Assembly: GCA_012521105.1 (NCBI GenBank)
Contig: JAAYNA010000063.1
Coordinates: 1-64,000, forward strand
Source of the DNA: Clostridiaceae bacterium
GTDB taxonomy: Bacteria > Bacillota > Clostridia > DSM-8532
Length of the DNA stretch: 64,000 nt
Reading direction: 5' to 3'
Shown one piece after another: positions 5,696 through 61,316 of the stretch (the stretch's first letter is position 1; the number at the start of each line of letters is the position of its first letter). The position numbers and the translations under genes were made by a program. A model generated the notes under the pieces. That model was not told the origin of the DNA and ran no database searches. It was given only the letters and a program-made list of their open reading frames with translations.

Positions 5696-5719
5696 ATCTT
5701 TTGTTTCCCAGATTCACAC

Positions 5720-5782
5720 GCGGGTCCTGCTTCGGGTGTTCTGTCTCCTTGAACAACAAAGCACCTGCCGGGAACCCCGCCC
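5720..5782 (-). repeat. Dispersed palindromic repeat, module 1 (inverted copy)
   Basis: A GC-rich hairpin-forming segment whose reverse complement matches 37532-37593 at roughly 73% by eye, including two near-perfect 13-base blocks (GGCAGGTGCTTTG and GAAGCAGGACC plus flank). Arms GGTGTT and AGCACC are internal, with outer arms GCGGG and CCCGC. It is non-coding on both strands as far as I can tell. Confidence 0.6.
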
Positions 5783-5810
5783 TTCAGTATAAGGATAACT
5801 CGATAGCTAC

Positions 5811-5848
5811 CGTGCAATGACCGAAGCTTTTAGCGTAGTGCAGCATAG
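5811..5848 (+). repeat. Dispersed repeat, module 2 (diverged copy)
   Basis: GTGCAATGACCGAAGC, then TTTTA and GCAGCATAG, lines up with the better matched module 2 copies at 37610-37652 and 61236-61278 with gaps. The match is partial, so membership rests mainly on its adjacency to module 1, the same pairing seen at 37.5 kb. Confidence 0.45.
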
Positions 5849-5977
5849 AGATGAGCAGTCAGATTCTTTATTGTTATAGGGTGTTTTTTTCTGAAAATTT
5901 GTCTGGAACACAGCGTATATTTGTCCGGTGAAAGGCATAGGTATATTCTAGACAAATCCGAGAGGGGTTTTTTAAGC

Positions 5978-35257: not shown

Positions 35258-35325
35258 ACCACTTGTTTGTCCTTGCTCTGACTGCACAGCTCCTGTAAAT
35301 GAAGAGTATTGCGCAATATCTTTAC

Positions 35326-37369: not shown

Positions 37370-37462
37370 AGCATCTCCTTTCCGGCATCTGTGATATGCT
37401 TGTCGGACCTTTAGATTCAGCTCTGGCTCAGTAACACACTTTGATCCATACTGCATACCAGG
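37370..37462 (+). repeat. Dispersed repeat, module 0 (related to 17988-18101)
   Basis: AGCATCTC, TCCGG-CATCTGTG and TAGATTC-GCT occur in the same order and spacing as in the element at 18.0 kb, and CAGTAACAC and TACTGC plus CCAGG follow similarly. The first 55 bases are roughly 75% alike by eye. The flanking inverted repeats of the 18.0 kb copy are not present here. Confidence 0.5.
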
Positions 37463-37531
37463 AAGTTGAGAGCGGAAAGCTGAGCGACCCGGGATATGGA
37501 GACCGCAACGCAGAACTTTTTTAGTAAAAAA

Positions 37532-37593
37532 GGGCGGATGTTTGGCAGGTGCTTTGGTGCGCAAGTGAAGCAAAACACCTGAAGCAGGACCGC
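37532..37593 (+). repeat. Dispersed palindromic repeat, module 1
   Basis: A hairpin-forming segment (CAGGTGCTTTG opposite CAAAACACCTG) whose reverse complement recurs at 5720-5782. Two blocks, GGCAGGTGCTTTG and GAAGCAGGACC, are identical between the copies. Confidence 0.6.
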
Positions 37594-37609
37594 TGACCAA
37601 TACTGTGAA

Positions 37610-37652
37610 GATTTTGTGCAATGCCCGAAACAGACGTTTTATATGCAAGAGC
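37610..37652 (+). repeat. Dispersed repeat, module 2
   Basis: A 43-base segment matching the reverse complement of 61236-61278 at 39 of 43 positions by eye, including TTGTGCAATGCCCGAAACAG and ATATGCAAGAGC. Unlike the 61.2 kb copy, it has lost the second long palindrome arm. Confidence 0.75.
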
Positions 37653-37686
37653 AGTATAGTCGTGGCATCATAACGATGTGATGCAA

Positions 37687-61188: not shown

Positions 61189-61213
61189 ATGTGAGAAAGC
61201 TCTGCTTTTTACA

Positions 61214-61278
61214 GATATTGTGCAATGTAAGAACAGCTCTTGCATATGAAGCGACTGTTTCGGGCATTGCACAATATC
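61214..61278. repeat. Dispersed palindromic repeat, module 2 as a full hairpin
   Basis: Perfect 14-bp arms GATATTGTGCAATG and CATTGCACAATATC with AACAG/CTGTT as an inner pair. The reverse complement of 61236-61278 matches 37610-37652 at 39 of 43 positions by eye. It lies in a 300-base non-coding spacer between clpX and the topoisomerase genes; it has no T-run, and clpX already has a terminator. Confidence 0.78.
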
Positions 61279-61316
61279 AAAAGTTTAATTGACGCCGTTT
61301 TGAACATGCGTGAAGA

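Follow-up and report, generated by a model that had tools for sequence, protein, structure and literature searches.

Results

The window, that is the whole stretch of 64,000 nucleotides analysed here, belongs to a draft genome of 3.38 Mb in 194 contigs (G000), and it carries two related intergenic segments, one upstream of pcrA at 37.6 kb and one at 61.2 kb, flanked by the clpX terminator and a gyrB/parE-type gene. The first-pass annotation had regarded them as copies of a dispersed palindromic repeat, either a small mobile element (REP or MITE-like) or a structured RNA family, and its description of the pair proved accurate: when 37610-37652 is set against the reverse complement of 61236-61278, 39 of 43 positions are identical, exactly as reported, including both blocks described as such. 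The second-best 43-base match of 37610-37652 in the whole window, both strands considered, reached 26/43, and the 20-mer TTGTGCAATGCCCGAAACAG was found twice in the window with up to three mismatches (0.01 expected from dinucleotide shuffles). The perfect 14-bp arms described at 61.2 kb were recovered at 61214-61227 and 61265-61278; they bound a 65-bp hairpin of the module that we call A (61214-61278, minus strand, nhmmer E = 1.9e-8), and the RNA fold of 61210-61285 had z = -5.05 against shuffles. It was likewise confirmed that a single arm is kept at 37.6 kb, where nhmmer aligned 37610-37660 (plus strand) to the left arm of A alone (model positions 2-51 of 202, E = 2.1e-5; blastn with the 61.2-kb copy, E = 9.1e-11) and where 37600-37680 folded no better than shuffles (z = 0.42).

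The repeat at 37.6 kb is larger than first described, since it reaches about 37660 and is preceded at 37431-37591 (plus strand) by a second, longer quasi-palindromic repeat, module E (model positions 34-194 of 198, nhmmer E = 9.4e-31, the model being built from 19 E copies of four genomes). E and A alternate: E is followed by the A fragment at 37.4-37.66 kb, and at 5.7 kb a fragment of E (5719-5802, minus strand; model positions 116-198, nhmmer E = 1.9e-15; blastn match 5718-5765) directly abuts a right-arm fragment of A (5807-5863, minus strand; model positions 144-201, E = 5.3e-9). A weak and probably decayed A remnant with bits of both arms lies at 35261-35306 and has no assigned strand (nhmmer E = 0.003 on each strand; blastn E = 0.005). 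At the Rfam gathering threshold the window gave the bacterial large SRP RNA alone (RF01854, 55140-55405, 212.6 bits), and five element loci searched with E up to 1 gave nothing near a gathering score.

Reading the flanks of the G000 copies defined the full A copy as a quasi-palindrome of about 200 bp with the left arm GATATTGTGCAATGCCGGAAACAGNCGCTTCATTTGCAAGAGCTGTGCAGTTCAGCTCGGGCAAGCCGAAACTCGCAAAAATGC, the right arm GCATTTTTGCTCAAACAGTCGGCTTGCTTATCCTCGCTCTGACTGCACATCTCTAAGCTGCATTCCGCTAAAAGTTTCCTTGCATTGCACAATATC and the terminal inverted repeats GATATTGTGCAATG.../...CATTGCACAATATC. In the relative G018, A sits within a third module, C, and the C ends GTTACTGTTCACAC...GTGTGAACAGTAAC form the terminal inverted repeats of the units there; a scan of this genome for the 24-base C end motif gave 80 matches, against 0 for the control. 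The order E-A-E recurs in DTU069 with similar linkers. E had no match in the A-rich G024, therefore A and E are independent modules. In G024 A forms tandem arrays with a period of about 222 bp; at two loci (L142, contig C36:43300-45500; L145, contig C102) four to five A hairpins follow one another with linkers of about 20 bp that alternate in type. A mini form of about 66 bp in G018 corresponds to an A copy from which the whole stretch separating the two GCTTCATT direct repeats of its arms has been lost, and the mini forms, the 65-bp copy at 61.2 kb included, are internal deletions of the A hairpin. Both the A core (about 200 bp) and the G018 units (93-335 bp) stay below the limit of about 500 bp for MITEs, are without a transposase gene and have terminal inverted repeats; the GC content is 43% in A and 56% in E as compared with 39% in the window, thus the AT-richness of a typical MITE is lacking.

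The annotation had made its proposal depend on further copies, and these are numerous. With up to three mismatches TTGTGCAATGCCCGAAACAG occurs 18 times in G000, the reversed-pattern control giving 0, and BLAST with the A consensus returned at least 36 matches in G000, at least 70 in G024 (also labelled DTU070), at least 36 in G017 (AS06), at least 45 in G018 (AS09), 2 in G026 and 0 in G025. The related genomes G017, G018 and G024 hold, like G000, full-length A copies, all of them at most 91% identical to the consensus query; the A end motif alone was counted 77 times in G018. Each of three relatives thus contains A in tens of copies, and A also occurs in two MAGs besides these. An exact internal A motif was found, among 84,980 genomes, in five MAGs only (DTU070, DTU069, AS06rmzACSIP_332, AS09scLD_248 and AS02xzSISU_46), an exact scan of genome contigs with the A end motif gave no match, and neither did a search for A in plasmids, phages and viral contigs. 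Among 391 Clostridia genomes, a sample without G017 and G018, A matches were confined to the window's own genus and none occurred in the 387 genomes sampled outside it. All carriers, which were taken as bacteria of anaerobic digesters, biogas reactors or sludge, are represented by draft MAGs, and such assemblies reconstruct repeats badly. No description of an A/E/C repeat family was found in open-access papers, and the family is apparently undescribed so far.

Movement could be followed in G018, a member of a related genus. The left and right 8-bp flanks of the units bounded by C ends match each other well above expectation (z = 6.8), with no signal at lengths of 4-7 or 9-12. When all end pairs were used, length 8 gave z = 7.7, or 5.6 without nested units, and lengths 6, 7, 9 and 10 gave none; after the nested units, whose flanks resemble another end, had been dropped, 9 of 34 units matched at 7 or more of the 8 positions versus 0.5 expected. 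These direct repeats are target-site duplications, and G018 thus has the flanking repeats by which a MITE is recognised. The units bearing them measure 93, 116, 120, 126, 130, 292, 331 and 335 bp, those of 116-130 bp being mini and those of 331 and 335 bp composite forms; as the lengths are so different, full, mini and composite forms must all have moved, the composite one being able to move as a whole. At the A core ends, which may not be the outer ends of a unit, no 8-bp signal was detected in G000, G024 and G017/DTU069, and a length-2 signal was ascribed to mixed orientation. An end-agnostic search for duplications gave no signal and was powerless, since it missed the positive control G018 as well. 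As for an autonomous partner, no A halves lying kilobases apart were seen among the sampled loci, in drafts that lose high-copy IS; the frames inside the G018 C ends, judged by eye, looked like ordinary genes and none was transposase-like. A search for the Y1_Tnp domain (PF01797) in two element-rich genomes, G024 (99% complete) and G017 (84% complete), found none. At two G018 loci (L168, L286) a hairpin that resembles a terminator, AAAAAAGCTGAAA...AGCTGAAGCTTTTTT, apparently holds the C unit in its loop, which suggests insertion into terminators.

The annotation had also asked for compensatory changes in the folded copies, and these are abundant. Over 51 full copies from six genomes, pairing holds in 93% of the cells of the 64-pair A stem, and in 23 of the 64 pairs both sides have changed. 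Double-changed cells number 191 versus 67 in shuffles and 14-41 with the stem slid, a control that retains the relatedness of the copies; these counts overstate independent events, since the copies themselves served to derive the stem and many changes within a genome go back to common descent. Paired variants include AAGTCGA/TCGACTT in G017 and DTU069, where the other genomes have AAGCCGA/TCGGCTT, as well as GTGCGGT/ACCGCAC, GTGCAGT/ACTGCAC and GTATAGT/ACTATAC. Even the terminal 14 bp of A, which varies between and within genomes (GATATTGTGC, GATATCGTGC, GATACCGTGC, ACTATTGTAC), still pairs with the opposite end, for instance as ACTATTGTAC/GTACAATAGT versus GATATCGTGC/GCACGATATC. With DNA folding parameters one DTU069 copy had z = -6.0. 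When only columns with good pairing in every subfamily were counted, departures from pairing showed no strand asymmetry overall (30 G-U vs 34 A-C), which gives no support to selection on an RNA strand. By group this strict filter gave 19 G-U vs 10 A-C in G024, 7 vs 10 in G018 and 4 vs 14 in G017/DTU069/AS02; a looser structure gave 52 vs 15 in G024, an excess that comes partly from columns unpaired in most copies.

The A copies are intergenic, and the genes on either side mostly run in one direction; A follows that direction in 22 cases and opposes it in 13, counts that rest on crude longest-ORF gene calls, which 22 copies overlapped; in G000 alone A is on the strand of its flanking genes in 9 cases vs 1. 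Some sites are shared between genera (loci L002/L232/L148 and L010/L210/L216). A is found at the 3' side of clpX in G000, G024 and AS02, and at a site between spmB, so named from reading its translation, and a response regulator gene in G000, DTU069 and AS02, and its orientation at such orthologous sites differs between species. Both loci found in AS02 are sites also occupied in the window's genome. Between clpX and the gyrB-type gene of G025 and G026 the element was not clearly recognisable, and at pcrA the flanks were too diverged to be aligned for a clean empty site. Genera have orthologous sites in common at a higher rate than simple random insertion would lead one to expect, which may reflect either hotspot insertion or old residence with inversion through the arms.

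Discussion

We consider it likely that both segments are pieces of repeats that belong to a single family of transposable palindromes, MITE-like, modular and non-autonomous. This reading draws on direct observations, namely the copies, their module structure, the covariation of the stem and the 8-bp duplications of G018, and membership among MITEs is supported by length, inverted ends and target duplication. Against it stand the autonomous element that was looked for and not found, the A core ends of G000, G024 and G017/DTU069, where no 8-bp duplication came to light, the GC content of A and E above that of the window, the shared orthologous sites and the draft state of the MAGs. Mobility was seen in a relative, and the copies of the window would themselves have arrived by transposition. 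According to the proposed course of events, an A core of about 200 bp, a quasi-palindrome with arms paired over 64 base pairs, would be carried in larger units, such as the G018 units of 93-335 bp with C ends, which would insert into intergenic DNA and create an 8-bp target-site duplication. Since the duplication has this length, the mover is presumably a DDE-type transposase acting in trans; 8-bp duplications fit several DDE families. The copies might have been altered later by deletion within the hairpin, leading to mini forms, by fusion with other palindromic modules (E and C) and, in G024, by tandem amplification. The role of the paired arms would be that of a DNA hairpin or of matching ends in transposition, not that of an RNA.

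The RNA alternative offered by the annotation, a structured non-coding RNA under selection on one strand, be it an attenuator, an sRNA or an mRNA-stability element, could account for the compensatory changes along the A stem, for asymmetric internal loops conserved across genera, for the occurrence of A near the same genes in different genera and for the same-strand bias in G000. However, an RNA family should combine compensation with wobble tolerance on one strand, and here compensation is present and the asymmetry is absent: in a selected RNA the departure favoured on the functional strand would be G-U, and overall G-U and A-C departures are about equal. The orientation relative to genes is mixed and differs between species at one site, Rfam has no match, and the 8-bp duplications show movement; this branch of the annotation is not supported and seems quite unlikely.

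It might also be supposed that the repeats are old immobile palindromes, the arms of which look compensatory through template switching or gene conversion, with neither selection nor present mobility. Quasi-palindromes do get corrected by template switching, the shared orthologous sites suggest long residence, and duplications matching at 7/8 rather than 8/8 suggest that many insertions are not recent. Homogenisation would nevertheless erase the arm-specific asymmetric loops, which persist across genera, the existence of subfamilies particular to one genome, with paired variants of their own, implies that amplification happened repeatedly, and the duplications show movement at some time; we regard this explanation as very unlikely.

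REP units measure 20-40 bp and carry a GTAG or CGTC tag, and IS200/IS605-type HUH transposition is not known to make 8-bp target duplications. Spread as REP/BIME-type repeats by a RAYT (Y1 HUH) transposase acting on single-stranded hairpins is extremely unlikely and was rejected, because, in spite of the intergenic hairpin mosaics and the G024 arrays with their linkers of about 20 bp, which resemble BIMEs (PMC3733652), PF01797 is absent from two carriers, G024 and G017, the target duplications are 8 bp long, and A (about 200 bp) and the units of 93-335 bp far exceed 20-40 bp. Of the mobile element that the annotation had proposed, the strict REP version is thus not supported, and the MITE-like version is supported by copies spread through the genome, their terminal inverted repeats, their variation in size and the duplications in a related genus.

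MITEs are typically, not strictly, AT-rich relative to their host. Like the prokaryotic MITEs, among them Correia/NEMIS, ERIC, QMITE and Chunjie (reviewed in PMC10969869), the family is short and non-coding, has terminal inverted repeats and strong hairpins, is present in tens of intergenic copies, varies in size through internal deletion and makes short target duplications; unlike them it is a mosaic of two or three unrelated palindromes with abundant compensatory stem change, A and E are not AT-rich, and no related IS was found. BOX of Streptococcus pneumoniae, with boxA, boxB and boxC modules in variable number and a length of 67-637 bp (PMC3049150), is likewise a composite modular repeat with terminal inverted repeats that pair mutually, target duplications and a range of few related species, a likeness of description; here, however, the modules (A, E, C) are whole hairpins able to stand alone. 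REP/BIME sequences with RAYT transposases are similar as palindromic intergenic units that cluster in mosaics and arrays (PMC3733652), and they differ from our units, which are several times longer, lack a RAYT domain in two carriers and have an 8-bp duplication. By analogy the family would work like a MITE, with a modularity like that of BOX (PMC3049150, PMC10969869).

For the Clostridia of biogas reactors, an order that has been little studied, this means an additional and apparently undescribed group of mobile palindromes. Its base-paired co-evolution has left an unusually clear record, and its target duplication can be measured. The group offers a case for testing whether hairpin structure at the DNA level constrains bacterial MITEs. 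The further idea that such transposable palindromes are recognised mainly by hairpin structure and not by end sequence, the hairpins A, E and C being interchangeable modules in one mobile unit, is a doubtful one. In practice, repeats of this kind break MAG assemblies and can pass wrongly for regulatory RNAs.

Two other short repeats were seen next to A. In contig C40 of G017 (L079) a 42-bp tandem repeat, CTTACATTGCACAATATCTCATAAGCAGAATACTCCATATTG, comes after a full A copy and consists of the A right end and a linker, and at the end of contig C149 of G000 (L039) the 34-bp GGGACAGGTACCTTGTCTGGCTATCCCAAAACTG occurs twice beside an A right end and resembles other hairpin repeats.
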